DNA of 64,000 bases, taken from contig NZ_CP021780.1 of NCBI RefSeq assembly GCF_002192415.1, positions 1,984,001 to 2,048,000 of the forward strand, in the 5' to 3' direction. The notes beneath the pieces are model-generated. The model was given only the letters and a program-made list of their open reading frames with translations. It did no database searches and was not told the DNA's origin. This document shows, piece after piece, positions 4,749-51,403 of this stretch. Made by a program: the position numbers and the translations under genes. How positions within the stretch are numbered: the stretch's first letter is position 1; the number at the start of each line of letters is the position of its first letter. Source of the DNA: Paenibacillus donghaensis. Lineage in GTDB: Bacteria; Bacillota; Bacilli; Paenibacillales; Paenibacillaceae.

Positions 4749-4968
4749 GTATTTCTTTGAGGCAGAAGTTTAAGCCATGAAGAAGATATTATGATGTTAG
4801 CATGCATAACATTAGCGGGTGTTTTTTGTGTATTTTCACTAATACATCTAGTTTATGATTGATAACGAGACGGCATTCAGTTTAAAATAGATGTACCGAG
4901 TGATATAAAGTGACATATAATAATCGAAAGATCGGCCAAATATACGGACAGATGAGAGGATGAGGGTC

Positions 4969-27197: not shown

Positions 27198-27223
27198 ATG
27201 ATTTGGCGGATTCGCTGCTTCAG

Positions 27224-27462
27224 CTGCCGCTGCTATTGTCGCCCGCCGCCGCCAACTGGCTGCCGCTGCTACTGTCGCCCGCTGCCGCCAACTGGCTGCC
27301 GCTGCTACTGTCGCCCGCTGCCGCCAACTGGCTGCCGCTGCTACTGTCGCCCGCTGCCGCCAACTGGCTGCCGCTGCTACTGTCGCCCGCCGCCGCCAAC
27401 TGCTGCCGCTGCTATTGTCGCTCGCTGCCGCCAACTGCTGCCGCTGCTCGCCGCCGCTGCTA
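27224..27462. repeat. 36-bp GC-rich tandem repeat (about 6 units)
   Basis: Units of 36 bases starting CTGCCGCTGCTA-TGTCGCCCG occur at 27224, 27260, 27296, 27332 and 27368, followed by shortened degenerate units to about 27462. Long frames are open on both strands because the unit is a multiple of three and lacks stops. The encoded peptides (PLLLSPAAANWL or ATVAAAASWRQR) have no ribosome binding site or recognisable character, so no gene is called. Confidence 0.85.
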
Positions 27463-27840: not shown

Positions 27841-27900
27841 TTATGTAGAGAAAATTATGATTTACTTTTCTTGGGAATAAGGTTTATATAAAGATAATGT

Positions 27901-28215
27901 CTTGCGCATTCCGAAGGAACAGCCCGCTTTTGCCTTTAAGATCTTGCGCATTCCGAAGGAACAGCCCGCCTTTGCCCTTAAGATCTTGCGCATTCCGAAG
28001 GAACAGCCCGCCTTTGACCTTAGCCCTCGGCCGTGCATCCCGGCAGGGATAGCGGCCATACCCTGCGACGTCCAAGCGGTCCCGCAGGGATAAGCGCTCC
28101 TACCACCCAGCCCCCTAATCACTGTACCGCCAAGCTCATTCGCCAAGCTTGCAGGTGTCCAGAGGGTGCAACCCTTTGGGGCCCTCCCTTGGAAGGGAGG
28201 GTTTGGGAGGGATCG
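27901..28215. repeat. long dispersed repeat P, copy 2, with 42-bp tandem units
   Basis: This copy matches P1 (15143-15392) over most of its length. Its left part holds three tandem 42-base units starting CTTGCGCATTCCGAAGGAAC at 27901, 27943 and 27985; P1 has one full unit and a partial one. The right end lies 14 bases ahead of the amj ribosome binding site. Confidence 0.8.
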
Positions 28216-28243: not shown

Positions 28244-29050
28244 ATGACAAATAGTTTAATTGTAGTATGCCTGCTGACGATGATCATCCACACTGCGGAA
28301 ACCTTGTCCTATTCGGTGCGTTTTGCCGGAGTCCGGCTGAATAAAATTGCGATTGCCCTGTCGCTGACCGGGATTATCGTGCTGGTCTCCCGCACGGCGA
28401 ATATGGTACAGGCACCGCTCACCGCCAAGTTTGTCGATTATGCCAATACCGTCAATTCCAACGGAGGGCCTGTATTTCCGCTGGAGAACTATTTGCGGAT
28501 TATCCTGCTGGCTTCTTCGCTCGGCACTCTGCTGGCGATCGCGGTTTTTCCGACCTTTGTCGGCCTGTTTCAGCGTATTATCGCCAGGCTGGAGATTGAG
28601 GGCTCGCTGCCCAAGCTACTGGGGAGTGTGACCATAGGCCAGCTTAAGAACACCCGAAAGTACATAAGGAAGCCAAAAATCAAGCTGTACAGCTTCAGAT
28701 ACCTCGGCATCCCCAAACGGTTTATTGTGCTGAATATCTTCGTCACCGCGTTCTATACGGTAGGGGTGCTCGCCTCGCTGTATGCTGCCCATCTAGTGCC
28801 TGCATTCAGCACTACAGCCTCCCAGGCATCGGGGTTGATCAACGGGATGGCGACCATCCTGCTGACAATCTTCATTGACCCGCAGCTGGGCCTCATTACT
28901 CACAAAGCGATTGAGAACATTGAATACCGCGACCAGCTAGGCAAAATCTACGTCCTGCTGATGGGCTCCCGGTTTCTCGGCACCTTGCTGGCCCAGCTGT
29001 TTCTTGAGCCGTCCGCACATTTCATTACAATGCTGGTGAAGCTGCTGTGA
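28244..29050 (+). CDS. amj: lipid II flippase Amj
   Basis: This 268-residue protein has six or more membrane segments and the DUF2837/Amj signature: LLTMIIHTAETLSYSVRFAG at the N-terminus, SLTGIIVLVSRTANMVQAPL, and FIDPQLGLITHKAIE near the C-terminus. In Bacillus subtilis Amj is an alternative to MurJ that moves lipid II across the membrane for wall synthesis and is induced by envelope stress. Length and motifs match. AAAGGAG precedes the ATG. The upstream region is entirely repeat P2, so its promoter may lie in or before the repeat. Confidence 0.85.
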   Translation: MTNSLIVVCLLTMIIHTAETLSYSVRFAGVRLNKIAIALSLTGIIVLVSRTANMVQAPLTAKFVDYANTVNSNGGPVFPLENYLRIILLASSLGTLLAIAVFPTFVGLFQRIIARLEIEGSLPKLLGSVTIGQLKNTRKYIRKPKIKLYSFRYLGIPKRFIVLNIFVTAFYTVGVLASLYAAHLVPAFSTTASQASGLINGMATILLTIFIDPQLGLITHKAIENIEYRDQLGKIYVLLMGSRFLGTLLAQLFLEPSAHFITMLVKLL

Positions 29051-30198: not shown

Positions 30199-31200
30199 AT
30201 GCAGCTTAGACGTGTAAAAATAATCGGAACCGGCAAATATTTACCCGAACATGTAGTAACGGATGAGGAACTGGATCTCAAGCTGGAGGTGCCGGCGGGC
30301 TGGGTCAACAAGACGACCGGTGTCGGCAAGCGTCATTATGTCGGCGAAGGAGAAACCTCCTCCAGCATGGGCGCAAAGGCGGCCTATGCAGCATTGGCAG
30401 ACGCCGGGCTTGACTTCTCCGACATTGACTGTCTGGTCTGCACCAGCGGAACGAAAGAGCAGCCTCTGCCAAGTACAGCCGTATTTATTCAACAGGCGAT
30501 GGGGCAGGAGGACTCGGGAGTTCCCGCTTTTGATATGGATGCCACCTGTCTCAGCTTTCTGGTGGGGCTTGATGTGATGTCATACCTGGTCGATGCGGGA
30601 CGTTACAAGAATGTGCTGCTGGTTGCCACAGAGATTGCTTCCGCCGGATTAAACTGGGACGAGAAGGAAAGCGCGGCGCTGTTTGGCGACGGTGCAGCAG
30701 CAGTGATTATCGGTCCCGCGGGGGCCGGCGAATCTTCAAGCATCATCCATACCTCGTTGAATACGTACAGCAAGGGGGCGCGTTATTCCGAGATTGCCGG
30801 CGGTGGTACCCGGAAGCATGCCAGAGGATACAGTGAGGAGCAGAAGCAGTTCTATTTGTTTCATATGGACGGACAGGCGATTTTCAGGATGGCCTCCAAG
30901 CTGCTGCCAGACTTCATTGCCGGCATGCTGGGGCAAGCCGGAATGGCAATGGAGGATTTCAAGCTAGTGATCCCGCATCAGGGCAGTGCCATGGCGATGA
31001 GGCTGATGCGCAAGAAGCTGGGGATTGCCGAATCCCGCTTTATGAACATTACGCCGAACCATGGCAACACGATTGCCGCTTCCATCCCCATGGGCCTGCA
31101 TGAAGGCATTCAGCAGGGCAGATTCCAGCGCGGAGACCGCATCCTGCTGATTGGCACAGCGGCTGGACTGTCGCTTGGAGGCATGATCCTTGAATATTGA
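30199..31200 (+). CDS. 3-oxoacyl-ACP synthase III-like condensing enzyme (OleA/FabH type)
   Basis: This 333-residue thiolase-fold enzyme has Cys117 (FDMDATCLSFLVGLD), His260 (VIPHQGSAM) and Asn290 (PNHGNTIAASIP), the Cys-His-Asn triad of KAS III enzymes. It could join an acyl-CoA to malonyl-ACP like FabH, or two acyl-CoAs head to head like OleA. Being first in a coupled run with an OleD-like reductase and an adenylating enzyme, a dedicated secondary pathway is more likely than housekeeping fatty acid synthesis. GGGAGA precedes the ATG. The next gene starts inside its last codons. Confidence 0.88.
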   Translation: MQLRRVKIIGTGKYLPEHVVTDEELDLKLEVPAGWVNKTTGVGKRHYVGEGETSSSMGAKAAYAALADAGLDFSDIDCLVCTSGTKEQPLPSTAVFIQQAMGQEDSGVPAFDMDATCLSFLVGLDVMSYLVDAGRYKNVLLVATEIASAGLNWDEKESAALFGDGAAAVIIGPAGAGESSSIIHTSLNTYSKGARYSEIAGGGTRKHARGYSEEQKQFYLFHMDGQAIFRMASKLLPDFIAGMLGQAGMAMEDFKLVIPHQGSAMAMRLMRKKLGIAESRFMNITPNHGNTIAASIPMGLHEGIQQGRFQRGDRILLIGTAAGLSLGGMILEY

Positions 31201-32404
31201 TCTTCCGGTGGATGTGGGTAGCAGGAATGTCCTGATAACCGGAGGGCGCGCCCCGGTCGCACTGGAACTGGCCCGTCTGCTGCATGGGGCGGGACACCGG
31301 GTATATGTGGCGGAAAGCGCCGCCTATCATTTATGCCGCGTGTCCGCTGCCGTGGAGCAGAGCTTCAGGGTGCCGCCGCCCAGGCAGAACCCGCAAGGCT
31401 TCATCGCGGAGCTGGAAGTGCTGGTCCGCCGTTTCAAGATCGATCTCCTTGTGCCGATGTGTGAGGAGATTTTCTACATTGCCCGAGGTCTTGATCTGCT
31501 GGGCAGCCACTGCCGGGTGCTCTGCTCCCCGCTTGAACTGCTGCATGGTCTGCATCATAAGGCCGAATTTATCTCGCAAGCCAAGCAGCTTGGACTCGCC
31601 GTTCCGGCAACAGAGCTGATTGCCAGTCCCCAGGAATGGAGCCGGGCGATGGAAGCGCAAGTGCAGCAGCCCCAGCGTGTATTCAAACCGGTGTATTCAC
31701 GTTTCGCGTCTAAGGTGATCATGCCGGAAGGAAGCGCTAAGCGTGGCCACAATCCTGCCGCACCCTTCGCCATTTCGCAGTCTTTCCCTTGGGTGGCACA
31801 GCAGTATATTCAAGGAACGGCAATCTGCACCTATAGTATTGTGCATGAAGGAACCGTGGTGGCTCATGCAGCATACGGGAGCCAATATCGCACGGGGCAG
31901 GTGGGGGCCAGCGTTTATTTTGAAGCGCTGAATCATCCGTCCGCTATGGATTTTGTCCGCCGGTTCGTGCAGGCAATCGGCTTCAGCGGCCAGATCGGCT
32001 TTGATTTCATAGAGGCGGAGGACGGGACGCTCTATCCGATTGAATGCAATCCGCGCGCGACCAGTGGACTGCATTTGTTTGCTCCGGCAGATCACCTGCC
32101 GCAGGCGCTGCTGTCACCGGGCACGCTGGCCGCCGCAGGCAAGGTAATTACCCCGCACACCGGCAAAAAAGTGATGTTGGCGCTGCCAATGCTCGCCTGC
32201 GGTTTGTCTGCAGGCAGAGGAAATCTGGCCAGCTGGTGGGGGGCCTTCCGCACAGCGGGAGATGCGGTGCACCGGAGGAGCGATCTCCGCCCTTCAATAG
32301 AACAGCTGCGGATAGTATACAAGGCCTGGCGATTGGCGGCTGCACATAAGCTGACGATGACCGAAGCCTTGACAGAGGATATAGAATGGAACGGTGAACG
32401 ATGA
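31190..32404 (+). CDS. ATP-grasp ligase
   Basis: This 404-residue protein has an N-terminal Rossmann-like domain (NVLITGGRAPVALELARLLH), a middle ATP-grasp region with VFKPVYSRFASKV, WVAQQYIQG and the metal-binding IGFDFIEAEDGTLYPIECNPR, and a C-terminal helical tail. ATP-grasp enzymes activate a carboxylate as acyl phosphate and join it to an amine, thiol or other nucleophile. It starts at TTG 31190 with GGAGG eight bases before, overlapping the KAS III gene by 11 bases. It overlaps the next gene by four bases. Substrates unknown. Confidence 0.85.
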   Translation: MNIDLPVDVGSRNVLITGGRAPVALELARLLHGAGHRVYVAESAAYHLCRVSAAVEQSFRVPPPRQNPQGFIAELEVLVRRFKIDLLVPMCEEIFYIARGLDLLGSHCRVLCSPLELLHGLHHKAEFISQAKQLGLAVPATELIASPQEWSRAMEAQVQQPQRVFKPVYSRFASKVIMPEGSAKRGHNPAAPFAISQSFPWVAQQYIQGTAICTYSIVHEGTVVAHAAYGSQYRTGQVGASVYFEALNHPSAMDFVRRFVQAIGFSGQIGFDFIEAEDGTLYPIECNPRATSGLHLFAPADHLPQALLSPGTLAAAGKVITPHTGKKVMLALPMLACGLSAGRGNLASWWGAFRTAGDAVHRRSDLRPSIEQLRIVYKAWRLAAAHKLTMTEALTEDIEWNGER

Positions 32405-33393
32405 CAAAAGCACTTGTAACCGGTGCCACCGGGTTTCTGGGCCGGCACACGGTAAGGCGGCTGATACAGCTGGGTTGGGAAGTCAGCGCATTGGGGCGCA
32501 GCCGTGAGGCCGGGGAGCAGTTGAAGCGTGACGGGGCTGTTTTTATGGCTCAGGATCTGCGCAATACAGCGGAGATTATCCGGTCCTGTGCGGGCCAGGA
32601 TTATGTATTTCACTGTGGTGCCCTGTCATCCCCGTGGGGCAAGTACAGCGAGTTCTACGGCTGCAATGTCGAGGGTACACGCAATATTGTTGCAGGTTGT
32701 CTGAAGCACGGGGTGGGGCGGTTAATTCATATCTCCACGCCCAGCGTATATTTCAATTATCAGAACCGGCTCGGCTTGTCGGAAGAGGCTGAACTGGCCC
32801 TAAAGCCTGCGAATGCCTACGCCGCTACGAAGCGGCTGGCAGAGCTGGAAGTGGAGCGGGCAGCAAGCTCTGGGCTGGTCTCGGTCATTCTGCGGCCCAG
32901 AGCGATCTTTGGCCCGATGGACAACGCCCTGTTTCCACGAATATTAAGTGTAAATGAGGGGAAGGGGGTCCCGCTGCTGGATGGCGGGATTGCCCTGATC
33001 GACCTGACCTATGTCGATAATGTAGTCGATGCCATGCTGCTGGGCAGCAGTGCTCCGGATGCAGCGACAGGAAGGATCTATAATATCTCCAACGGAGAGC
33101 CGATGCCTTTCGTGGAGCTGCTCACCAGCTTGTTCGCCAAGCTGGATATCCCGCTGCATACCCGCAGCGTCTCCTACCGGACGGCGCATCTTGCGGCGGG
33201 CTTGCTAGAAGGTCTGCACCGGCTGCTGCCCGGGCTTGGGGAGCCGGCGCTGACCCGTTATTCGGTTGGGTCGCTGGCCTTGTCCCAGACCCTGGATATT
33301 TCGCTTGCCCGCAGCTTGCTTGGCTATGAACCAAGGATAACGGTAGCGGAGGGTCTTCAGAACTTCGCGGATTGGTGGAGGGAACAGAAATGA
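32401..33393 (+). CDS. NAD(P)-dependent epimerase/3-beta-HSD family reductase (OleD-like)
   Basis: This 330-residue extended short-chain dehydrogenase has the nucleotide-binding TGATGFLGRH at residues 7-16, a Ser/Thr at 112-113 and the catalytic Tyr140/Lys144 pair (NAYAATKRLAE). Its overall pattern (HCGALSSPWG, STPSVYFN, RPRAIFGP, LIDLTYVDN) resembles OleD-type enzymes that reduce 2-alkyl-3-keto acids in olefin/beta-lactone synthesis, and 3-beta-hydroxysteroid dehydrogenases. Next to a KAS III enzyme this fits reduction of a beta-keto acid to a beta-hydroxy acid. Both ends overlap neighbours by four bases. Confidence 0.82.
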   Translation: MTKALVTGATGFLGRHTVRRLIQLGWEVSALGRSREAGEQLKRDGAVFMAQDLRNTAEIIRSCAGQDYVFHCGALSSPWGKYSEFYGCNVEGTRNIVAGCLKHGVGRLIHISTPSVYFNYQNRLGLSEEAELALKPANAYAATKRLAELEVERAASSGLVSVILRPRAIFGPMDNALFPRILSVNEGKGVPLLDGGIALIDLTYVDNVVDAMLLGSSAPDAATGRIYNISNGEPMPFVELLTSLFAKLDIPLHTRSVSYRTAHLAAGLLEGLHRLLPGLGEPALTRYSVGSLALSQTLDISLARSLLGYEPRITVAEGLQNFADWWREQK

Positions 33394-34244
33394 TTACAGC
33401 TAGTCCTGTTGTATTATCGATATTGTCAGCCGGTTATTGCCGGCACCCGGAGCTTCTTACGCTGCGCGGCGGCTCCTTGCGGCCGGTAGCCTTTCCGGCG
33501 GGTTATGCCGTCATCCGGCATCCTCAGTTCGGCCCGATCTTGTTCGATACGGGCTACAGCAGCCGTTTCTTTCAAGAAACAGCCAAGCTGCCTGCAGCCT
33601 TGTACCGGCATATTACGCCGGTAGTCTTCATGGAGGAGGAGAGCGCCGCCCACCGCCTGCGCCAGGCGGGAATTGCGCCCGAGGAGGTGCGGCTTGTAGT
33701 GCTGTCGCATTTCCACGCCGATCATATCGGCGGCGTACGGGATTTCCCGCAGGCCGAATTCATCTACCTGCAGAAATCCTATGACGCGGTCCGTGACCTG
33801 GGGCCGGTCAAGGCGGTGCGGGCAGGCTTCCTGCCGGGCTTGCTGCCGGAGGATTTCCTGGAGCGGTCCCGGCCGGTGAACGGGGCCTCACCGAAACGGC
33901 CGCTGCCGGCGGGGCTGCCCTTCAGTGAGGGCTATGACCTGCTGGAGGACGGCAGCCTGCTGGCGGTGGAGCTGTCGGGTCATGCAGCAGGCATGATCGG
34001 TGTCTTCCTGTCCTCTGGCGGACACGACTATCTGCTCTGCGCGGACACGGTCTGGTCCAGCCGGGCCTTCCGTGAGAACCGCAGGCCACATCCGGCAGCA
34101 GGACTGATTATGTCCAGTCGCAAGGAATATGCGCTGAATTTCGACCGGCTGTGCGAGCTGCACAGCGGGCATCCGGAGCTGCGCATTGTACCCAGCCATT
34201 GCCGCGAGGCGCTCGCGGCTTGGGGTACGGGAGGCGTGCAGTGA
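33390..34244 (+). CDS. metallo-beta-lactamase-fold hydrolase
   Basis: This 284-residue protein has the zinc motif HFHADHIGG (His107, His109, Asp111, His112), further ligands near SGHAAGM and in the C-terminal VPSHCRE, and a lactonase-like layout similar to AHL lactonases. It probably opens a lactone or cleaves a thioester or ester in the pathway. The ATG at 33390 overlaps the preceding stop by four bases, with GGAGG before it. An OleB-type alpha/beta hydrolase is absent from this cluster, so this enzyme might take that position; that is inference. Confidence 0.82.
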   Translation: MITASPVVLSILSAGYCRHPELLTLRGGSLRPVAFPAGYAVIRHPQFGPILFDTGYSSRFFQETAKLPAALYRHITPVVFMEEESAAHRLRQAGIAPEEVRLVVLSHFHADHIGGVRDFPQAEFIYLQKSYDAVRDLGPVKAVRAGFLPGLLPEDFLERSRPVNGASPKRPLPAGLPFSEGYDLLEDGSLLAVELSGHAAGMIGVFLSSGGHDYLLCADTVWSSRAFRENRRPHPAAGLIMSSRKEYALNFDRLCELHSGHPELRIVPSHCREALAAWGTGGVQ

Positions 34245-35566
34245 AGCGGGTCCTGCTGACGGTCTATCATTACTGGCTGGCCCGCAGGGCAGGCAGAGGG
34301 GGGAGATGGAGGAACCCTGCAGCTCTTGCGCAGTGGCAGGAGCGGCGCATCCGGCGTCATATCGAGAAGCTGCGGAAGCTATCGCCCTTCTACCGTAGCC
34401 TGTGGGCGGGAATTCCTTCGGAAGAGTGGCGCCGGTTCCCCATCATTGACAAGGCGGCAATGATGGATCATTTCGACACCCTGAATACCGTCGGAATATC
34501 CAAATCACAGGCGTTTGACGTGGCTTATGAAGCGGAGAACAGCCGCCACTTCAAGCCTACCCTGAACGGAGTTACGGTAGGCTTGTCCTCCGGTACCTCG
34601 GGCAACCGGGGAATCTTTCTGGTCAGTCCCTCAGAGCAGGCCGCCTGGACGGGAGCGGTGCTGGGCAAGCTGCTGCCCGGCGGGCTGTGGAAGCGGGCAC
34701 GGATTGCTTTTTTTCTGCGGGCGAACAGTAATCTGTACGAATCCGTGCAGCGCGGTCGTCTCGAGTTCCGTTACTTCGATCTGCTGGAGCCGGTGGGCAA
34801 GCTGGTGGAACGCCTGGAGAGCTACCGCCCGGACATCTGGATTGCGCCGCCCTCCATGCTTCGCCTGCTGGCGGAGGAACATCAGGCTGGGCGGCTGGGT
34901 ATACAGCCCCGCACGCTGATCTCGGTGGCAGAGGTGCTGGACCCGCTGGACAAGACTTATATTGAGCAGTGCTTCCAGCTGACTCTCCAGCAGGCCTACC
35001 AATGTACCGAAGGTTTTCTTGGCTCCACCTGTCAGCACGGCATGCTGCATTTAAATGAGGATATTGTGCATATAGAGAAGGAATACCTGGACCCGCAGTC
35101 GCGGCGGTTTGTTCCGATCATTACCGATTTCTCGCGGACGGCCCAGCCGATCATCCGCTATCGGCTGGGTGATATCCTTACCGAAGCGGCTGCACCTTGT
35201 CCGTGTGGCTCGCCGCTTACCGCTATAGAGCGGATTGAAGGGCGCTGTGATGACATCCTGTATCTGCCGCATACCGAAACCGGGCAGCTGGTTACGCTGT
35301 TTCCCGATTTCGCCACCCGGGCAGTGATGGCGGCTTCAGCACATATTCATCATTACCGTGTGATTCAGCACAGCCCGCTGGATATGGAGATCTCCTTCAG
35401 TCTGGCGGAGGGCAGTCGTGCGGAGACGGAAGGGCTGATCGCCGGGCAGCTGGAGCAGCTCTGCGGACGTCTGCACTGCATCCTGCCCAAGCTCAGTTTT
35501 ACTGAATATGAATTCACCCCGGGACTTGTGAAGCTGCGGCGGGTGGAGCGCAGATGGATCCTTTGA
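34241..35566 (+). CDS. F390 synthetase/PaaK-like adenylate-forming enzyme
   Basis: This 441-residue protein resembles coenzyme F390 synthetase-related and CapK/PaaK enzymes: SPFYRSLW near the start, the phosphate-binding SSGTSGNRGIFLVSP, YQCTEGFLGSTC, and RYRLGDILTEAAAPCPCGSP with a paired-cysteine turn. Such enzymes form acyl or aryl adenylates and often CoA esters. It starts at GTG 34241, overlapping the previous stop by four bases, with GGAGG before it. It may activate the beta-hydroxy acid or a separate acid partner. Substrate unknown. Confidence 0.82.
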   Translation: MKRVLLTVYHYWLARRAGRGGRWRNPAALAQWQERRIRRHIEKLRKLSPFYRSLWAGIPSEEWRRFPIIDKAAMMDHFDTLNTVGISKSQAFDVAYEAENSRHFKPTLNGVTVGLSSGTSGNRGIFLVSPSEQAAWTGAVLGKLLPGGLWKRARIAFFLRANSNLYESVQRGRLEFRYFDLLEPVGKLVERLESYRPDIWIAPPSMLRLLAEEHQAGRLGIQPRTLISVAEVLDPLDKTYIEQCFQLTLQQAYQCTEGFLGSTCQHGMLHLNEDIVHIEKEYLDPQSRRFVPIITDFSRTAQPIIRYRLGDILTEAAAPCPCGSPLTAIERIEGRCDDILYLPHTETGQLVTLFPDFATRAVMAASAHIHHYRVIQHSPLDMEISFSLAEGSRAETEGLIAGQLEQLCGRLHCILPKLSFTEYEFTPGLVKLRRVERRWIL

Positions 35567-35629
35567 GCGGAGCCGTGAACGCAAATGAAACCTATACAAC
35601 TTTAGCCGAAAGTAGGAATGATGGAAGTG

Positions 35630-36493
35630 ATGAATGCTGAACGGTTAGCGGCTAATGAACTTGACCGTGTAGCCTTGATTACGGGCGCCTCCAGCGGCTT
35701 CGGGCTGCTGAGTGCGCTGAAGCTGGCGGGCCAAGGCTTCGTGGTGATTGCCACCATGCGGGATTTGAACAGCAGGGGCGAGCTGCAGCGTCAGGCTGAG
35801 GAAGCGGGGGTACTGCAGCGGCTGCACTTCGTCACCCTCGATGTCACCTCGGAAACATCCATAGCTGCTGCGGTGCAGAAGGTAAGCGGAAGCTTTGGCA
35901 GAATTGATCTGCTGGTGAACAATGCAGGCCTCGCTGTTGGCGGATTTGTGGAGGAGGTACCCATGGAACGCTGGCGGATGCAGCTGGAGACCAACTTCTT
36001 CGGGCTGGTTACCGTGACGCGGGCTGTTCTGCCGCTAATGCGCAAGCAGGGGAGCGGGATGATTATTAATGTAGGCAGCATCAGCGGTTTGGCGGGTTTC
36101 CCCGGATATGCTCCGTACGCCGCTTCCAAATTCGCTGTCGAGGGCTTCAGTGAGAGTCTGCGCCATGAGATGCTGCCCTTTGGCATCAAAGTGGTGCTGA
36201 TCGAGCCTGGTTCGTTCCGAACCCCGATATGGGGTAAAGGCATCGCCGATATGGCTCAGCAGCCGGATTCCCCCTACACAGCCAAGCTTGCGGCGGTATT
36301 GCGCTATTCCCAGAGCGCTGCGGAGACCGCTCCCGATCCACAGCAGGTGGCGGATCTGATTGGCCGGATCAGCAGGATGAAAGCTCCCCGTCTGCGCTAC
36401 CCGATCGGACGCGGCACCCGGCTGCTGATTCTCGGTAAGACCCTGCTGCCCTGGAAGTGGCTGGAGCGGATCATCGCCCGTGTTTTGGGGTAG
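35630..36493 (+). CDS. short-chain dehydrogenase/reductase
   Basis: This encodes about 287 residues (291 if the ATG at 35618 is used) of a classical SDR with TGASSGFGLL, NNAGLAVGG, the serine in NVGSISG and the YAASK catalytic pair. It has an extended C-terminus with a hydrophobic helix. It lies 63 bases past the adenylating enzyme gene and probably belongs to the same unit, acting on an alcohol/ketone of the pathway product. None of the clustered ATGs has an ideally spaced ribosome binding site, so the start is unsure. Confidence 0.82.
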   Translation: MNAERLAANELDRVALITGASSGFGLLSALKLAGQGFVVIATMRDLNSRGELQRQAEEAGVLQRLHFVTLDVTSETSIAAAVQKVSGSFGRIDLLVNNAGLAVGGFVEEVPMERWRMQLETNFFGLVTVTRAVLPLMRKQGSGMIINVGSISGLAGFPGYAPYAASKFAVEGFSESLRHEMLPFGIKVVLIEPGSFRTPIWGKGIADMAQQPDSPYTAKLAAVLRYSQSAAETAPDPQQVADLIGRISRMKAPRLRYPIGRGTRLLILGKTLLPWKWLERIIARVLG

Positions 36494-36587
36494 CGTTAGA
36501 GCCGAAGGCGGGCTGAAGTGGCGGAACTGATTATTTTCGTTTAAGCTGGAAAGAGATAAAGAGTCAGAAGTGAATGGAGGTGCGCCG

Positions 36588-36989
36588 TTGCCGGGAGCTA
36601 TCGGACTGCATTTGAGCTTTGATGAGCAAGGCCGCGAGATTGAGATTCTGGATGTGATTCGTGTGGATGAGGACAAATACCGCATTGAGGAAACTCCGAT
36701 TTTTAATCCGGCGGTGACTATGGGTGATGTAATCCGGGTCAGGGAAGAACATGGCATCTATTATTATGTGGAAACCGTCGAGAAATCACCTTTCCGGCGA
36801 ATGGCCTGGCTGCTTAGCAAGGAGACAGTCATTTCTGCGGAGATCGCCGCGTTCAAGGAACGGATTATAGCCTCGGGCGGCAAATGGGAGCAGATTTTTG
36901 GCGGACTGTTTGTGGTTCATATGCCCAAGAATAGTGTGATCGATGTGGAAACGGAAATGAATCGGATAATCGAGCGTTTTGAACGCTGA
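36588..36989 (+). CDS. DUF4265-like protein
   Basis: This encodes about 133 residues of a small soluble protein with the DUF4265 pattern (EILDVIRVDEDKYRIEETPI, FNPAVTMGDVI, then ISAEIAAFKERIIASGGKWE). I prefer the TTG at 36588, seven bases after GGAGGT; the ATG at 36570 precedes that site. The gene follows the acyl cluster by under 100 bases but shows no link to it. Function unknown. Confidence 0.65.
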   Translation: MPGAIGLHLSFDEQGREIEILDVIRVDEDKYRIEETPIFNPAVTMGDVIRVREEHGIYYYVETVEKSPFRRMAWLLSKETVISAEIAAFKERIIASGGKWEQIFGGLFVVHMPKNSVIDVETEMNRIIERFER

Positions 36990-37040
36990 AGAACAGAATG
37001 CCGGACGTATCTATTTTATATAATAGGAGGATTTGTGCAA

Positions 37041-37538
37041 ATGAAATTTCTGAAGCAATGGGTACCTAGTATCGTTATCGGGATTGTAATTTCCTTATTT
37101 GTACGTACATATGTAGCAGAAGCGATGAGAGTGCCTACCGGGTCGATGATTCCTACAATCCAGATCAACGACCATTTAATTGTTGAAAAGATGCTCTGGG
37201 CATCCTCGCTGGAGCATGGAGATATCATCGTCTTCAATCATAAACCATCCGTAGCCGAGGAGCGCATGAGGTTAGTGAAACGTCTGATCGGGCTTCCGGG
37301 CGATACCGTGGAGGTGAAGGAAGGCGTGCTGTACAGAAATGGGGCACAGGTCGATGAGCCTTACCTTCAGCTGACGATGGATTACGACTTTGGACCGGTT
37401 ACCGTACCTGCGGCGCATTATTTTTTCATGGGGGACAATCGCAATATCAGCTATGATGGCCATCTCTGGGAGAACAAATTTGTGTCCGAAGACGAGCTGG
37501 TCGGCAAGGTGATTGCCGAGTTCAGCAGCCCTTTCTAA
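37041..37538 (+). CDS. type I signal peptidase
   Basis: This 165-residue membrane protease has one N-terminal membrane segment, catalytic Ser35 (VPTGSMIPTI), Lys80 (RLVKRLIGLPGD) and the box MGDNRNISYDGHLW. The last box departs slightly from the usual GDNRNNSxDSR. It removes signal peptides from exported proteins on the outer face of the membrane. TAGGAGG precedes the start; a GTG six bases earlier is possible. Bacillales carry several such enzymes, so the exact sip/lep name is left open. Confidence 0.9.
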   Translation: MKFLKQWVPSIVIGIVISLFVRTYVAEAMRVPTGSMIPTIQINDHLIVEKMLWASSLEHGDIIVFNHKPSVAEERMRLVKRLIGLPGDTVEVKEGVLYRNGAQVDEPYLQLTMDYDFGPVTVPAAHYFFMGDNRNISYDGHLWENKFVSEDELVGKVIAEFSSPF

Positions 37539-43065: not shown

Positions 43066-43144
43066 GATGTGTAGCCTGCGGCCTTAACCTATCCTGCGCC
43101 GCAGCTCTACATAGGGAAAAAACCTTAACATCGGGGTGAGTCTT

Positions 43145-44752
43145 GTGAGAATCGGTAAACATACGCTGCGGCTGCAGACGACAATCAGCCTGATGATCTG
43201 CAGTGTACTGGCGGTGGTGCTGCTCGTTGTCTATATCATGCTTGGGCTGAAGGTAGCTACGCAAACGAAGGATTCGCTGGAGCAGCAGGCCGTGATGCTG
43301 GCCCGTACGATTTCCCGGACTCCGCTGGTGATTGAATCGCTTGAGGACACCCGTAACACTGCAGAGCTGCAGTCGTATGCCGAGGAGATGCAGAAGATTA
43401 ATGCGGTACAGTTTGTGGTCGTAATCGATATGAATGGCATCAGGTATACGCATCCTGATCTGGACAAGATCGGCGAGCACTTTACTGGCGGGGACGAACA
43501 GGCGGTGCTGGAAGGCCGGGAGAGTATTTCTGAAGCGAAGGGGTCGCTCGGTTCATCCGTGAGAGCGTTCTCTCCAGTGAGGGCAACGGATGGAACACAG
43601 GTCGGAGCGGTATCCGTAGGCATCTCGCTCAGCAGTGTGCAAACGGCCGTACAGGAGAATGAAGGCATTCTGTATTGGGGTATTCTGATAGGTTGCGCCA
43701 TGGGCGCGGCAGGCGCGCTGCTGCTGGCCCGCAAGATTAAGCGGATTATGTTCGGAATGGAGCCGTCCGCCATCGCCAAGCTGCTGGAGGAACGCAGCGC
43801 GATGCTGCAATCCGTCCGCGAGGGGATTATCGCTGTCGATCAACATTCGCGGATCACACTTGTCAATGCCGAGGCCAGGCGGTTGCTGGCGGATACAGGG
43901 ATGCAAGGCGAGCCGCTTAGCCAGTCGATTGCCGATATCTGGCCTTCGCTGCGCATGGAGACCGTGCTGGAGAGTGGAGAAGCCAGCCAGGATCTGGAAG
44001 TCGAGCTGGGAGGCATTACGTTGCTGATGAATGTGCTACCGGTGCGGGTCAGCGGCAAGGTGGAGGGGGCGATCGCTACGTTCCGCGACAAGACTGAGAT
44101 CAGCCTGCTGCTGGAACGACTGTCTGGCATCTCCCTGTACGCCGAGGCACTGCGCGCTCAGGCTCATGAATTCATGAACAAGCTGCATGTGATACTCGGC
44201 CTTACCCACATGCGCCGCTATGACCGGCTGGAGGAATACATAACCGGGACTGTGTCCAAGGTGCAGGAGGAGGTAGGCATGATGGTCCGCCAGGTGAGGG
44301 ACCCCGTGATGGCCGGATTCCTGCTGGGCAAGCTGAGTCGTGCAAGAGAAGCTGGCATTCGCCTGGTCGTGCTGGAGGATGGTATTCTGCCCGAGGCTGG
44401 TGATCCCGAGGTTTCGCGCGAGCTGATTACGATTGTTGGCAATCTGCTGGACAACGCCATGGAGGCCCCGGAGGGGGTAGCCGGCAAACGGATTCATATT
44501 GGATTTCAATACAAGGAAGGCGGACTTATAATAACGGTAAGCGATAATGGACGCGGGATGCCGAAGGGGGTCCAGCCTCATATCTTCAGCCAGGGGTATT
44601 CCACGAAGGGCAAGGACCGGGGGAGCGGACTCTATCTGGTTGAACGGAGTCTTCTGAAGACAGGAGGAACAATTATTTGTGAGACAGGTGAAGGCGAAGG
44701 AACAAGGTTTACGGTTAAGCTGCCATATCAGGTGAAGGGGGACAGCTTATGA
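43145..44752 (+). CDS. malK: sensor histidine kinase of the CitA/DcuS/MalK type
   Basis: This 535-residue kinase has an N-terminal membrane segment, an extracytoplasmic PAS-like (CitAP) sensor with FVVVIDMNGIRYTHPD, a second membrane segment near residues 175-195, a cytoplasmic PAS, the phosphorylation site region ALRAQAHEFMNKLHVILGL and the ATPase motifs NLLDNAMEA and GRGMP. Length and order match B. subtilis MalK (YufL), which senses malate. GTG 43145 is preferred; a GTG nine bases earlier is possible. It overlaps the response regulator gene by four bases. Confidence 0.85.
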   Translation: MRIGKHTLRLQTTISLMICSVLAVVLLVVYIMLGLKVATQTKDSLEQQAVMLARTISRTPLVIESLEDTRNTAELQSYAEEMQKINAVQFVVVIDMNGIRYTHPDLDKIGEHFTGGDEQAVLEGRESISEAKGSLGSSVRAFSPVRATDGTQVGAVSVGISLSSVQTAVQENEGILYWGILIGCAMGAAGALLLARKIKRIMFGMEPSAIAKLLEERSAMLQSVREGIIAVDQHSRITLVNAEARRLLADTGMQGEPLSQSIADIWPSLRMETVLESGEASQDLEVELGGITLLMNVLPVRVSGKVEGAIATFRDKTEISLLLERLSGISLYAEALRAQAHEFMNKLHVILGLTHMRRYDRLEEYITGTVSKVQEEVGMMVRQVRDPVMAGFLLGKLSRAREAGIRLVVLEDGILPEAGDPEVSRELITIVGNLLDNAMEAPEGVAGKRIHIGFQYKEGGLIITVSDNGRGMPKGVQPHIFSQGYSTKGKDRGSGLYLVERSLLKTGGTIICETGEGEGTRFTVKLPYQVKGDSL

Positions 44753-45459
44753 TTAGAGTGCTGATTGTGGAAGATGATCCGATGGTAGCCGAGATGAACC
44801 GCTTCTATCTGGAGCAGGTGGAAGGCTTCAAGTGGCAGGGCTGGGCCCGGTCTGCGGACGAAGCCATGGAAATGCTGCTGGAGAACGGTCCATATGAGCT
44901 GATCCTGCTAGATGTATACATGAAGGAAACGAACGGGCTTGAACTGCTGTCTGCCATCCGCCACCGGGAGCTTGGGGTCGATGTGGTTGTCATATCGGCG
45001 GCAAGCGACAAGGAGAGCATCCGCCACGCGTTGCAGAACGGCGCGGTAGACTATCTGATCAAGCCGTTTGAGTTCAACCGGTTTCGTGCGGCGCTTACCG
45101 CTTACCGGGAACGGCATAAGGTGTTCCGGCAGCAGGATTCGCTGGATCAGAGCGAGCTGGACAAGCTGTCCAGATTCCGCTGGGAGCAAGGCCCGTCACA
45201 GGAGTTATCCAAGGGCTTCACCAGGCGCACCCTGCAGACGGTCTGGAGAGCGGTCGAGTCCTGTCAGGCAGAGACATTCTCCACCGAGGATATTGCCACG
45301 GCAACCGGCATCTCCCGTGTTTCGGTCGGCAAGTATCTGGCTGAGCTGGCCGAGATGGGAGCATTGATCTGTGAATTGAATTACGGGGCGCTGGGCAGAC
45401 CAGTTCAGCGTTACAGGGTCTCGCCGCATGGCGGATCGGTCATATCGAAGTTTATATAA
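44749..45459 (+). CDS. malR: response regulator of the CitB/MalR type
   Basis: This 236-residue protein has a receiver domain with acidic residues EDD near the start, the phosphoacceptor Asp in LILLDVYMKETNG and the conserved lysine in LIKPFEFNRF. A C-terminal winged-helix follows (FSTEDIATATGISRVSVGKYLAELAEMGAL). Length equals B. subtilis MalR (YufM) within one residue. It should activate the maeN-like transporter gene that follows. A terminator separates the two genes. Confidence 0.88.
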   Translation: MIRVLIVEDDPMVAEMNRFYLEQVEGFKWQGWARSADEAMEMLLENGPYELILLDVYMKETNGLELLSAIRHRELGVDVVVISAASDKESIRHALQNGAVDYLIKPFEFNRFRAALTAYRERHKVFRQQDSLDQSELDKLSRFRWEQGPSQELSKGFTRRTLQTVWRAVESCQAETFSTEDIATATGISRVSVGKYLAELAEMGALICELNYGALGRPVQRYRVSPHGGSVISKFI

Positions 45460-45471
45460 CCCACAGATTAA

Positions 45472-45510
45472 GCCGTTTCCCCATTATTTATGAGGGGAAA
45501 CGGCTTTTTG
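45472..45510 (+). terminator. terminator after malR
   Basis: GCCGTTTCCCC pairs with GGGGAAACGGC around an 11-base loop and is followed by TTTTT. Confidence 0.9.
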
Positions 45511-45543
45511 GTTTTTTTAGTTTGATAACGCTTACTTTAATAA

Positions 45544-45602
45544 TTTACATAACTCAATCAATATTTACATAAAAACAAAAGCGCTTTCATTCTCGCTATA
45601 GT
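45544..45602 (+). promoter_or_regulatory. maeN control region: MalR-type direct repeats, cre-like site, promoter
   Basis: Two TTTACATAA direct repeats (45544-45552 and 45564-45572) are exactly 20 bases apart, as expected for a regulator binding one face of DNA. A cre-like palindrome AAAAGCGCTTTCA (about 45577-45589) suggests CcpA control. TATAGT (45597-45602) is a good -10, while no good -35 is seen, which suits an activator-dependent promoter. Confidence 0.6.
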
Positions 45603-45634
45603 AAGGGTGTAAACGAGATAAGGAGGTAGCAAAC

Positions 45635-46981
45635 ATGCAAAAAGCAGTATCATCACCGATTCCCCAAGGGAATGTCCTTCCCCTCCCGGAAAAGGCCGGA
45701 TTCCTAAAAAGACTGACTCAAATCAAGGTGGGGGTCATTCCGCTTCCCCTGTATGTCATCCTGGCATTGATCATTTACGGCGCTGCAGTTACAGGAAATC
45801 TGCCGAACGACATGATCGGAGGATTCGCCGTCATTATGATCCTCGGCATGCTGCTGAGCGATATCGGCTTCAAAATGCCACTGCTCAAAAATATCGGCGG
45901 ACCGGCTATTCTGGCCCTGATGGTGCCCTCGTTCCTGGTCTTCTGGAATGTGCTCAGCCCTTCGGCGATGGATTCCGTCAAGACGCTGATGAAGACCTCG
46001 AACTTCCTGTATCTGTACATCTCCTGTCTGGTTGCAGGCAGTATCCTGGGGATGAACCGCAAGACCTTGATTAACGGGGTTGTCAAAATCTTCATTCCAA
46101 TGGTAGTCGGCACCATAGCCGCTGTAGGCGCAGGGATTGCAGTTGGAACTATGCTTGGCTACACCGTGCATCACACGATCTTTTACATTATTGTTCCGAT
46201 CATCTGCGGAGGTATTGGTGAGGGCATCCTGCCTCTGTCGATTGCTTACTCGCAAATTGTCGGCGGTGAATCCGGTGCGTTCGTAGCCCAGATGATTCCG
46301 GCAGCCATTATCGGCAATATCGTAGCCATCATCGGTGCGGGACTGCTGAAGAAGCTCGGCGACAAGAGACCCGCACTGTCCGGCAACGGCTTGCTGGTCA
46401 AGGAGAAGGACGGCGAGAAGCTCGGAGGCGGAAGCTATGAGGATAAGCCTGTAGTGTTCACATTAATGGGAGGCGGGCTGCTGCTTGCTTGCGGATTATT
46501 TATCTTCGGTTCCCTCGCTTCCAGCGTAGTTGGCATTCCCGGTCCGATCCTGATGATTTTTGCCGCTGCACTCATTAAATGCTTCAAAGCGATGCCGGAG
46601 AAAATCGAGCAGGGTGCGTTTCACCTGTACAAATTCGTATCTTCCAGCTTGACCTGGCCACTGATGGTGGGTCTGGGCATGCTCTATGTGCCACTGAATG
46701 ACGTAGCTGCAATCATCTCTGTGCCTTATATTCTGACCTGCACCGCTGTCATCGTGGCCATGATTATTTCTGGCTTCTATGTCGGCAAAATGATCCGGAT
46801 GTATCCGGTAGAAGCCGCTATTGTAACAGGCTGCCGCGGCGGATTGGGCGGAACGGGCGATGTGGCCATTCTGTCGGCTTCGAACCGTATGGAGTTAATG
46901 CCTTTTGCCCAAATCTCAACCCGGATTGGCGGAGCGTGTACCGTGATTCTGGCCACCCTCCTGCTGCAGATGTGGCATTAA
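45635..46981 (+). CDS. maeN: 2-hydroxycarboxylate transporter (malate/citrate symporter)
   Basis: This 448-residue membrane protein has the two GGxG re-entrant motifs of the 2HCT family (CGGIGEGILPLSIAYS and CRGGLGGTGDVAILSAS), in opposed halves of the protein. Its length equals that of B. subtilis MaeN, a sodium-malate symporter. It lies directly after the malKR-like pair, with candidate regulator sites in its promoter, and 15 bases before a malic enzyme gene. Uptake of malate with sodium is the best call; citrate remains possible. Confidence 0.87.
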   Translation: MQKAVSSPIPQGNVLPLPEKAGFLKRLTQIKVGVIPLPLYVILALIIYGAAVTGNLPNDMIGGFAVIMILGMLLSDIGFKMPLLKNIGGPAILALMVPSFLVFWNVLSPSAMDSVKTLMKTSNFLYLYISCLVAGSILGMNRKTLINGVVKIFIPMVVGTIAAVGAGIAVGTMLGYTVHHTIFYIIVPIICGGIGEGILPLSIAYSQIVGGESGAFVAQMIPAAIIGNIVAIIGAGLLKKLGDKRPALSGNGLLVKEKDGEKLGGGSYEDKPVVFTLMGGGLLLACGLFIFGSLASSVVGIPGPILMIFAAALIKCFKAMPEKIEQGAFHLYKFVSSSLTWPLMVGLGMLYVPLNDVAAIISVPYILTCTAVIVAMIISGFYVGKMIRMYPVEAAIVTGCRGGLGGTGDVAILSASNRMELMPFAQISTRIGGACTVILATLLLQMWH

Positions 46982-46996
46982 GGGAGGTGGGGAGGA

Positions 46997-48424
46997 ATGA
47001 CTGCTGCAGACCTGAAGCAGGTTAGCCTGAGGATGCGGATTCAGTATCCGCTTGCCGGAAGTTATCTGGGAGACATGTTACGGCTGATCGAATGCTACGG
47101 CGGCGATATTTCAGAGGTCCGGCATGTTGCAGCAACGGGGTCAGAGCTGGCTCAAGACATTGTGTTCAAGGCTTCTGACGCTACAGGCAGAAAGCTGATC
47201 GAGATTAACGCTCAACAATTGACTGGAGGGATAGTAATGACAATGATCGATGAAGTAATGCAGCTGCACCTTGGCGGGAAGCTGACAACCGGTCTGAAGA
47301 ATGAGATTCTATCGATGGAGGATCTGTCCAAGGTCTACACACCGGGAGTAGCACGGGTCTGCCAGGCCATTGCGGCCAATGAAGATGCGGCTTATGAGTA
47401 TACGATCAAAAAAAATACGGTAGCCGTGGTAAGTGACGGAACGGCGGTACTGGGTCTGGGCGATATCGGGCCTAAGGCAGCTATGCCGGTCATGGAAGGC
47501 AAAGCGGCGTTGTTCAAACAATTCGCCGGTGTGGATGCGTTCCCGATCTGTCTGGATACCAAGGACACAGAAGAGATTATTGCGATTGTGAAGGCGCTCG
47601 CGCCTGCTTTTGGCGGCATTAACCTGGAGGATATTGCTTCGCCACGTTGCTTCGAGATTGAAGCCCGGCTGAAGCAGGAGCTGGACATTCCAGTCTTCCA
47701 TGACGACCAGCACGGAACAGCGATCGTGGTGCTTGCGGGCATTCTAAACGCACTGAAGGTATGCGGCAAGGACATCAAGGATGTGAAGATCGTGGTGAAT
47801 GGAGTCGGAGCGGCCGGAATTGCCGTATCCAAAATGCTGCTGCATGCCGGAGCCGTCAATTTGATCGGTGTCGACCGTAGAGGGGCGATTAACCGTCTGG
47901 AGGTATATGACAAATCGCATTGGACGGAATTCTCGCTGATCTCGAACCCGTTTACAGAAGCAGGTTCGCTGTCTGAGGTGATTAAGGGGGCAGACGTATT
48001 TATCGGATTGTCGGCGCCGAATATTTTACAGCTGAGTGATGTGAAAAGCATGGCCAAGGACCCGATCATCTTCGCCATGGCGAATCCTACGCCCGAGATT
48101 GATCCGGAACTTGCCGCTCCGTTTGTTAGAGTAATGGCGACCGGACGTTCGGATTTCCCGAACCAGATCAACAATGTATTATGCTTCCCTGGCATCTTCA
48201 GAGGGGCGCTGGACTGCGGAGCGACCGATATTACCGAGGATATGAAACTGGCGGCGGCCCGGGCGATTTCCTCGGTGATCGAGGAGAGCGAGCTTAGCGA
48301 GACGAATATTATCCCGAACGCTTTTGACCCTAGAGTGGTGGAGCGCATTCGTGAAGCGGTCATCCGTGCAGCGGTGGACAATGGTGTAGCCAGATATCCC
48401 GGTCTGCTGCTGGGAAGCAAATAG
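46997..48424 (+). CDS. NAD(P)-dependent malic enzyme with ACT-like N-terminus
   Basis: This 475-residue enzyme has an extra N-terminal domain of about 75 residues resembling an ACT fold (MRIQYPLAGSYLGDMLRLIE), then the malic enzyme domains: VYTPGVARVCQAI, the metal site in FHDDQHGTAIVVLAG, the nucleotide turn NGVGAAGIAV and SGL/IFAMANPTPEI motifs. It converts malate to pyruvate and CO2. GGGGAGGA precedes the ATG, 15 bases after the maeN stop, so the two are co-transcribed. A paralogue lies at 60400. The cofactor (NAD or NADP) cannot be assigned. Confidence 0.9.
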   Translation: MTAADLKQVSLRMRIQYPLAGSYLGDMLRLIECYGGDISEVRHVAATGSELAQDIVFKASDATGRKLIEINAQQLTGGIVMTMIDEVMQLHLGGKLTTGLKNEILSMEDLSKVYTPGVARVCQAIAANEDAAYEYTIKKNTVAVVSDGTAVLGLGDIGPKAAMPVMEGKAALFKQFAGVDAFPICLDTKDTEEIIAIVKALAPAFGGINLEDIASPRCFEIEARLKQELDIPVFHDDQHGTAIVVLAGILNALKVCGKDIKDVKIVVNGVGAAGIAVSKMLLHAGAVNLIGVDRRGAINRLEVYDKSHWTEFSLISNPFTEAGSLSEVIKGADVFIGLSAPNILQLSDVKSMAKDPIIFAMANPTPEIDPELAAPFVRVMATGRSDFPNQINNVLCFPGIFRGALDCGATDITEDMKLAAARAISSVIEESELSETNIIPNAFDPRVVERIREAVIRAAVDNGVARYPGLLLGSK

Positions 48425-48551
48425 AGATTGATAAATAAAGATAGATAACCACAGATAAACAGAGATGAACAGAGATAGATAAACAGAGATACAAGCAACA
48501 GTTCAAGACTGGATGATGTCGGCGATTAAATTCATATCATCCTATATAAGA

Positions 48552-48638
48552 TGAACTTAAGAATGGGACAGTAGAGTTGCCAGAAAGTCTGATATACAGG
48601 GCTTCCTGGCAACTCCATTTATAACATTCTTAAGTTCA
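48552..48638. repeat. nested perfect palindrome upstream of ppdK
   Basis: Outer arms TGAACTTAAGAATG (48552-48565) and CATTCTTAAGTTCA (48625-48638) enclose inner arms GAGTTGCCAG (48574-48583) and CTGGCAACTC (48606-48615). The element ends 37 bases before the ppdK start. It could be a small MITE or a structured leader. The AT-rich region 48425-48490 has short imperfect repeats of ACAGAGATAGATAA. Confidence 0.7.
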
Positions 48639-48675
48639 CGTTCTATAAATCCAATTTATGATGGAGGGGCAGCCT

Positions 48676-51369: not shown

Positions 51370-51403
51370 ATTGTCGGGCTATACGGTGAGAGGGGTTATC
51401 AGG

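Follow-up and report, generated by a model that had tools for sequence, protein, structure and literature searches.

The described systems that come closest to the gene cluster considered here, six genes in a 64,000-nucleotide stretch of the Paenibacillus donghaensis genome (NZ_CP021780.1, 8.54 Mb in a single contig; the whole stretch is called the window below), each share some of its parts. The pathway for the Pseudomonas quinolone signal and other alkylquinolones (PqsA-E) presumably combines an ANL ligase, a ketoacyl synthase III (KAS III) and an enzyme of the metallo-beta-lactamase (MBL) fold. In the Ole pathway (OleABCD), as outlined in PMC4090904, a KAS III stands with an extended short-chain dehydrogenase/reductase (SDR), OleD, and an AMP-forming enzyme. 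MxnB and CorB, the KAS III enzymes of myxopyronin and corallopyronin synthesis, use beta-ketoacyl chains bound to polyketide synthases and close a pyrone; part of PMC5724707 describes how MxnB, which has two binding tunnels, condenses two such carrier-bound chains. Bacterial sphingolipids, according to a portion of PMC11087976, require a serine palmitoyltransferase, an acyltransferase and a reductase.

The P. donghaensis cluster has features in common with each of these and differs from each. Its ketosynthase has MxnB and CorB as nearest solved relatives, but the cluster has no polyketide synthase, and a reductase, a hydrolase and an adenylating enzyme nearly always lie beside the KAS III. The combination of KAS III, OleD-like extended SDR and AMP-forming enzyme is that of the Ole pathway, whereas the ketosynthase lacks the OleA glutamate, OleB and OleC are missing, the reductase falls below the OleD cut-off, and an MBL enzyme and head-group modules are added. 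The alkylquinolone enzymes belong to different families (the MBL match to PqsE is weak), and the cluster adds a reductase and lipid-type modules. With bacterial sphingolipid and aminoacyl-lipid synthesis the clusters share kinds of tailoring enzyme, namely a ceramide-glucosyltransferase-like GT21 protein, a transferase with an MprF/FemX fold and a fatty-acid hydroxylase. A serine palmitoyltransferase-type pyridoxal phosphate enzyme was looked for among the six window genes and in the annotation around the annotated clusters, a scope that takes in neither the several unannotated loci nor whole genomes, and none was found. The backbone is thus probably a different one from that of sphingolipids.

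We propose that this cluster represents one form of a lipid-type pathway, widespread but uncharacterised, in which a four-gene core is combined with interchangeable tailoring modules, a reading to which we assign a probability of roughly 40%.

The cluster and its conserved core

The six open reading frames (ORFs) at 30199..36493 are intact and all lie on the + strand:

30199..31200, + strand: KAS III ketosynthase, core gene 1; PRK07204 family, Cys117-His260-Asn290, Gln88, and Leu90 at the column of OleA Glu117
31190..32404, + strand: ATP-grasp ligase, accessory module gene; PRK06849-like, TTG start, predicted fold near PylC, PurK and L-amino acid ligase
32401..33393, + strand: OleD-like extended SDR reductase, core gene 2; Tyr140/Lys144
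33390..34244, + strand: MBL-fold hydrolase, core gene 3; complete HxHxDH site, family profile nearest to acyl-homoserine-lactone lactonases, ATG start (alternative TTG at 33372)
34241..35566, + strand: F390 synthetase-related, PaaK-type adenylate-forming enzyme, core gene 4; TIGR02304, GTG start (longer ORF from 34151)
35618..36493, + strand: SDR, accessory gene; PRK06914 family, some likeness to 3-ketodihydrosphingosine reductases

The KAS III and ATP-grasp genes overlap by 11 bases (from the TTG at 31190), and the ATP-grasp/OleD-like, OleD-like/MBL and MBL/F390-related pairs by 4 bases each. From the alternative TTG at 33372 the OleD-like/MBL overlap would be 22 bases; the long ORF starts at 33372 (MBL) and 34151 (F390-related) were set aside because the chosen starts fit ribosome sites and the 4-base overlaps. 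A ribosome-binding-like stretch precedes the chosen start codons. The SDR gene starts 51 bases past the F390-related gene and is not coupled to it by overlap. In the promoter and terminator scan, promoter-like sites numbered 8 where 3.8 were expected, and terminator-like sites 11 where 7.0 were expected. The end of one weak promoter-like site (9 of 12) lies 218 bases upstream of the KAS III start, and no evident + strand terminator-like site lies between the cluster genes. By family scans, none of the six genes encodes an acyl carrier protein, OleB or OleC, and for OleB and OleC the search was confined to these genes. On the gene content, the common direction and the overlaps of the first five genes, and in its enzyme family names, the first-pass annotation of the window agrees with our scans.

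To see how far this arrangement extends, GTDB genomes were scanned with an alignment of seven F390-related sequences. At least 584 relatives were confirmed, and the best 80 loci were fetched and read with profile hidden Markov models for seven gene families. This set is biased to Paenibacillaceae: 79 loci are from Bacillota, mostly Paenibacillus, Cohnella, Saccharibacillus and Brevibacillus with some Thermoactinomycetaceae and a clostridial metagenome-assembled genome (MAG), and one is a cyanobacterial MAG contig. The nearest relatives of the window locus in the scan are from Paenibacillus. Besides the F390-related gene, KAS III is present in 79 loci, MBL in 78, ATP-grasp and the OleD-like reductase in 77 each, SDR in 61 and a GNAT-type transferase in 51. 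The order KAS III, ATP-grasp, OleD-like, MBL, F390-related holds in 72 of the 80, and the four core genes are in order in 73; one locus (L090) was scored out of order solely because of overlapping long ORF starts. Beyond the seven families, no same-strand family lies next to the cluster in more than 16 of the 80 loci, save one set from 22 loci whose reading frames merely overlap the KAS III gene out of frame. Of 295 genomes sampled from the window's family, 112 have a TIGR02304 match above cut-off, and of 299 sampled across the phylum, 6 do; Deinobacterium chartae, a named control genome, also passes.

The core is not confined to Bacillota. We examined 22 plasmid loci (L013-L018 and L120-L135), chosen from among the matches of three plasmid-record searches (14, 5 and 3 loci) rather than comprising all of them, two of which are Bacillota clusters like that of the window. 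In 18 of the 22 the four core genes lie together, and these loci span Bacillota, Alpha-, Beta- and Gammaproteobacteria and Fusobacterium, with hosts that include Ketogulonicigenium, Paracoccus, Rhizobium, Shinella, Burkholderia, Paraburkholderia, Pseudomonas, Novosphingobium, Fusobacterium, E. coli and a record filed as Roseateles (L129, flagged UNVERIFIED_ORG). In Fusobacterium the KAS III gene comes last. Across phyla, the proteins of core-order loci are 27-63% identical to those of the window. The other four plasmid loci comprise one with its core scattered over 10 kb (L123), one without KAS III or OleD in the examined stretch (L015, where they lie about 17-19 kb away on the plasmid) and two with KAS III alone (L131, L133). 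On two Pseudomonas megaplasmids (L015 and L123, and matches H72 and H109) some 10-20 kb separate the scattered core genes, which form no operon. We also considered 30 plasmid records whose KAS III match reaches 1e-40. In 25 of them an F390-related gene lies no more than 10 kb away; the exceptions are L131, L133, a P. amygdali record (18 kb) and two Neisseria records whose loci were not fetched.

A seven-gene version occurs in E. coli between narI and the tyrosine tRNAs/purU. Three genes join the core there, and their products are a PAP2 protein, a fatty-acid hydroxylase and a desaturase of fatty acids; the same seven are found in Burkholderia stagnalis. The E. coli version matches 672 of 5426 complete E. 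coli genomes, in 671 of which the match extends over 80% or more of the seven genes, and 671 of its 673 places are chromosomal. A phage origin was considered and rejected, as the F390-related protein has no match in 50,697 phage records at 1e-20.

An order conserved across phyla rules out a chance or lone arrangement. The unit of conservation is the four-gene core of KAS III, OleD-like reductase, MBL hydrolase and F390-related enzyme, to which ATP-grasp and SDR are lineage-specific additions. An ATP-grasp gene lies nearby in 8 of the 18 core-bearing plasmid loci and was not found in the examined stretch of the other 10 (E. coli, Burkholderia, Rhodobacterales, Fusobacterium, Pseudomonas and the DUF3419 group), and we have therefore rejected it as a defining gene. 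The first-pass idea of a biosynthetic unit conserved in other Bacillota is supported, although the window by itself could not reveal that this unit is narrower than the six genes.

Kinship of the ketosynthase

The KAS III scores 444 bits against NF005541/PRK07204 (cut-off 402). It passes the broad KAS 3 subfamily model PRK09352 (259.8 bits against 249) and stays under the cut-off of the FabH model TIGR00747 (244.7 against 292.1). Its best solved relatives in the PDB are MxnB (234 bits) and CorB (226), followed by FabH (191) and OleA (68), and it is 31% and 26% identical to the genome's own two FabH-like copies. We aligned 113 KAS III rows, which include two stand-alone proteins (L131, L133), some genomes twice and the window itself (L001). 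The catalytic triad named in the first-pass annotation is borne out and is kept, Cys117 in 113 of 113 rows and His260 and Asn290 in 112 each with one gap.

The column of OleA Glu117 holds Leu in 58 rows (among them Leu90 of the window), Ile in 54 and Gly in one; the glutamate of OleA and PpyS, which in OleA extends across the dimer, is found in none of the 113. Part of PMC4578411 reports that the glutamate required by OleA (E117) and PpyS (E105) is Val in MxnB and CorB. Two residues before this column, Gln88 is present in all 113 rows and in MxnB and CorB and is absent from the FabH and OleA rows, and a CLSF-type motif is common to the cluster proteins and MxnB/CorB. The description of this KAS III as OleA-like is therefore not upheld.

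In a 56-row tree, 37 cluster KAS III proteins group with MxnB, CorB and two stand-alone relatives against the FabH copies, with support of 94/98, which falls just under the program's star threshold. The Shimodaira-Hasegawa-like approximate likelihood ratio (SH-aLRT) support for the same split is 100 when OleA and four far paralogues are left out and 69 when OleA is restored, a drop caused by the great length of the OleA branch. OleA (residues 85-344 only) falls outside the set of cluster proteins, MxnB and CorB, but its branch measures 3.7-5.7 changes per column and its position is unsure. MxnB and CorB branch apart from the cluster proteins inside the shared group. The window protein separates from the genome's own FabH copies (L136, L137) and, given its TIGR00747 score as well, was rejected as a housekeeping FabH. 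Comparison of these sequences thus makes the kinship with MxnB and CorB against FabH firm. The two outcomes that would have spoken against the first-pass proposal, grouping with FabH and an unconserved gene order, did not materialise, which supports a conserved non-FabH unit.

By analogy with MxnB, which joins two chains, and given the missing glutamate, the chemistry of this KAS III may well be the joining of two chains by the MxnB/CorB rather than the OleA mechanism.

One of the stand-alone relatives, on a Priestia megaterium plasmid (L131, 7995-11623), lies on the MxnB/CorB side of the tree on a long branch. Next to it are genes for an acyl carrier protein and for an MmpL3-like transporter (317 bits, below the model cut-off), and the three are possibly a related lipid-export system.

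The other enzymes of the cluster

The reductase scores 235 bits against NF042422, well short of the 580 required of an OleD equivalog. It belongs to the broad OleD/HpnA/3beta-HSD group, and E. coli YbjS is another relative. Its Tyr140 and Lys144, also named in the first-pass annotation, are kept in 97 of 98 aligned rows, with one gap each; here and in the alignments that follow, some genomes again occur twice. The hydrolase matches PF00753 and retains its metal site (HxHxDH in 97 of 97, the next two ligands in 96 and the last His in 89); as a profile it matches acyl-homoserine-lactone lactonases best and the thioesterase PqsE weakly (6.5e-4).

The F390-related protein is a full member of TIGR02304 (491 bits, cut-off 251.9) and stays under the cut-off of Pfam AMP-binding (20.8 bits against 29.9). 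To our knowledge TIGR02304 has a family name and no established function, and a paper joining the family with the partners seen here was not found in the open-access literature. Ser116, Glu257, Asp311 and Arg335 are kept in 101 of 101 rows and Lys431 in 100, with one gap; we take these to be the P-loop, Glu/Asp/Arg and C-terminal Lys positions of ANL enzymes. The protein thus appears to keep the residues expected of a PaaK-branch ANL adenylating enzyme. The earlier suggestion that adenylating and hydrolase functions stand here in place of OleB and OleC remains sound.

The ATP-grasp protein scores 389 bits against PRK06849, just under the cut-off of 406, and D272, E285, N287 and R289 are kept in 91 of 92 rows, the exceptions being gaps. 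The nearest folds to its predicted structure (predicted local distance difference test, pLDDT, 92.0) are those of a carbamoyl-phosphate-synthase-like protein, of PylC and PurK and of an L-amino acid ligase. The SDR passes NF005372 (386 bits, cut-off 320), with Y167 and K171 kept in 63 of 63 rows.

Lineage-specific tailoring modules

The genes that accompany the core change with lineage. ATP-grasp, with or without the GNAT-type transferase, is found in Bacillota, in Paraburkholderia and in Rhizobiaceae and relatives, in the last together with a Rieske oxygenase. Rhizobium NIBRBAC, Shinella oryzae and R. rhododendri have a DUF3419 protein with a homologue of the GNAT-type transferase; DUF3419 presumably includes BtaA-type homoserine-lipid enzymes. 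The E. coli and Burkholderia module consists of the PAP2, FA_hydroxylase and FA_desaturase proteins; PAP2_3, we assume, includes inositol-phosphorylceramide synthases, and the only PDB match of the E. coli PAP2 protein was LpxE, at 0.49. Fusobacterium carries a GT21 protein, which matches ceramide glucosyltransferase (4.6e-6), together with an uncharacterised 215-residue protein; a weaker likeness (166 and 26 bits) lies beside the cyanobacterial MAG cluster, in whose examined stretch there is no KAS III. A divergently placed sulfotransferase gene accompanies the core in Ketogulonicigenium and two Paracoccus. Most of these tailoring enzyme types act on a lipid hydroxyl in known systems.

The transferase profile had no PDB sequence match. 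The modelled Cohnella transferase (L078, pLDDT 91.6) has a fold nearest to the MprF aminoacyl-phosphatidylglycerol synthase domain, aminoacyl-tRNA-dependent peptide synthases and FemX. In the window the amino-acid module is incomplete, with ATP-grasp present and the transferase missing; 15 further loci (L021-L035, P. amylolyticus and others) also have no transferase in the cluster, and clusters of this kind are therefore common.

Proposed pathway and its weak points

We infer the substrates, the order of the steps and the product from features that were read directly, namely gene content, gene order, conservation, catalytic residues and the kinship of the KAS III. The KAS III would join two long acyl thioesters, as MxnB and CorB do with their substrates, to give a 2-alkyl-3-oxoacyl thioester, or, less likely, would extend a single chain with malonyl. 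The OleD-like reductase would then produce the 3-hydroxyl, the MBL enzyme would cleave the thioester (or a lactone) to free the acid, and the F390-related enzyme would activate this acid as an acyl-adenylate or acyl-CoA, for transfer or reduction. These steps would yield an acyl lipid of the mycolic type, alpha-branched and beta-hydroxylated, or a diol derived from such a lipid, to which lineage-specific enzymes would attach a head group. In Bacillota, ATP-grasp (77 of 80 loci), often with the MprF/FemX-fold transferase (51 of 80), suggests that this head is an amino acid. More broadly, the GT21 protein, the PAP2, FA_hydroxylase and FA_desaturase set, DUF3419, the MprF-fold transferase and the PylC/L-amino acid ligase-like ATP-grasp point to lipids, and a hydroxylated two-chain lipid from the core would explain why such varied head-group enzymes lie beside it.

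Several observations weigh against this reading. The substrates of MxnB and CorB are beta-ketoacyl chains with an acidic alpha carbon, and it is unproven that a KAS III lacking the OleA/PpyS glutamate would join two plain fatty acyl chains. Two KAS III proteins of the clade (L131, L133) stand alone. The MBL profile is closest to lactonases, not thioesterases, and PaaK-type ligases act mostly on aryl acids. The fold matches of the modelled ATP-grasp protein are broad, spanning carboxylases and PurK too, and those of the transferase to MprF and FemX are loose (template modelling scores of 0.41-0.51 on the query, 10-17% identity), with tandem GNATs and N-myristoyltransferases in the same list. 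Two queries found no transferase match in the whole P. donghaensis genome, and the gene is present in four of four control genomes of the same genus. Each head module is known from few loci: two for E. coli/Burkholderia, three for DUF3419, three for the sulfotransferase (divergent) and two for GT21, one of these without KAS III in the stretch. Four loci (L070, L072, L080, L096) have ATP-grasp without the transferase or SDR. The order is kept without the OleD-like reductase in Brevibacillus (L040/L041) and without the MBL gene in two Paenibacillus (L089/L095); these clusters may show which step can come from elsewhere. Finally, we know of no product, mutant or assay for the cluster.

Alternative explanations

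The core might instead make a small secreted metabolite or signal (a pyrone, quinolone-like compound, tetronate or lactone), with the KAS III building a beta-keto compound, the MBL enzyme hydrolysing it as PqsE does and the PaaK-type enzyme loading an aryl or acyl starter. That the nearest solved ketosynthases are the pyrone-forming MxnB and CorB would fit this explanation, as would an MBL family that resembles quorum-quenching lactonases and weakly the PqsE thioesterase, F390-related enzymes that score against PaaK-type aryl acid ligases, and what we take to be the similar logic of ligase, KAS III and MBL in alkylquinolone synthesis. We nevertheless think it unlikely, though it deserves to be kept in mind, because the neighbours in other lineages handle lipids (GT21, PAP2 with fatty-acid hydroxylase and desaturase, MprF-fold transferase) and the 80 loci show no constant exporter or regulator, the further same-strand families, which were left unannotated, each occurring in 16 loci or fewer if the out-of-frame set is disregarded. 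A FabH-like decarboxylating KAS III that supplies special 3-hydroxy acids to ordinary phospholipids or lipoproteins, and hence a system for fatty-acid starters or chain modification, would agree with the Cys-His-Asn triad, the PRK09352 score and the identity to the genome's FabH-like copies. It seems improbable to us given that the cluster proteins stand apart from those copies in the trees and that such a role needs neither the conserved hydrolase nor the adenylating enzyme.

An amino-acid-conjugated acyl product (an N-acyl amino acid or peptide), for which the ATP-grasp enzyme would supply the defining step and, together with the F390-related enzyme, do most of the work, draws on the prevalence of ATP-grasp in the 80 loci, its presence in some of the core-bearing plasmid loci and its predicted fold near PylC and L-amino acid ligases. 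Its absence from the examined stretch of the other ten means that it cannot define the whole pathway, although it may define the Bacillota product, and we hold this explanation to be quite improbable. A variant Ole pathway, in which the F390-related protein replaces OleC and the MBL enzyme replaces OleB on the way to a long-chain ketone, beta-lactone or olefin, is in our judgement very improbable. The reductase does adjoin a KAS III and an adenylating enzyme, the reaction types are similar to those in the outline of PMC4090904, and the trees do not settle where OleA branches. On the missing glutamate, the low OleA and OleD scores and the lack of OleB and OleC among the six genes we nonetheless reject membership of the Ole pathway proper, although the tree alone does not place OleA, and polar head-group modules would make no sense for a hydrocarbon end product.

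Neighbouring features of the window

On the two sides of the cluster (28244-29050 and 36570-37538) lie genes for Amj (alternate MurJ), a DUF4265 protein and a signal peptidase. All three also flank it in L019, L020 and L042, the last two are kept in L052, and the arrangement was not found in the other fetched loci; they look like neighbours, not cluster members. Two tandem arrays, each 96% matching and in a stretch with no evident gene, lie at 27223-27448 (6.3 copies of a 36-base unit) and 27900-28022 (2.9 copies of a 42-base unit). A Rieske/VanA-type oxygenase gene (4960-6015) lies 24 kb upstream of the cluster and nothing ties it to the cluster; Rieske enzymes are also present in the Rhizobiaceae version. 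Genes for C4-acid metabolism occupy 43136-52198 (a Cache sensor kinase, a 2-hydroxycarboxylate transporter, malic enzyme, and pyruvate phosphate dikinase with its kinase/pyrophosphorylase), and a second malic enzyme gene lies at 60400-61833.

Significance

No description of the cluster was found in the open-access literature as judged by titles and the beginnings of abstracts, a scope outside which most subscription papers fall. The first-pass proposal of an acyl or lipid pathway that is, to that extent, undescribed has been strengthened and extended well beyond Bacillota, whereas its Ole label falls on the features tested. That these four enzymes stay side by side in several phyla makes it very likely that their product is worth having, and a species as well studied as E. 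coli carries this unexplained acyl pathway. The shifting tailoring genes predict a shared backbone with different heads. A further-reaching version of this idea, which we regard as unlikely but attractive enough to state, is that the core defines a new class of bacterial membrane lipid, built on a backbone other than glycerol or a sphingoid base. Two acyl chains would be fused into a branched hydroxy-lipid (an acid or 1,3-diol) that would act like diacylglycerol or ceramide and would carry glucosyl, phospho-, homoserine-type, aminoacyl or sulfate heads depending on the phylum, and such lipids would then be made by hosts that include about one in eight of the complete E. coli genomes.

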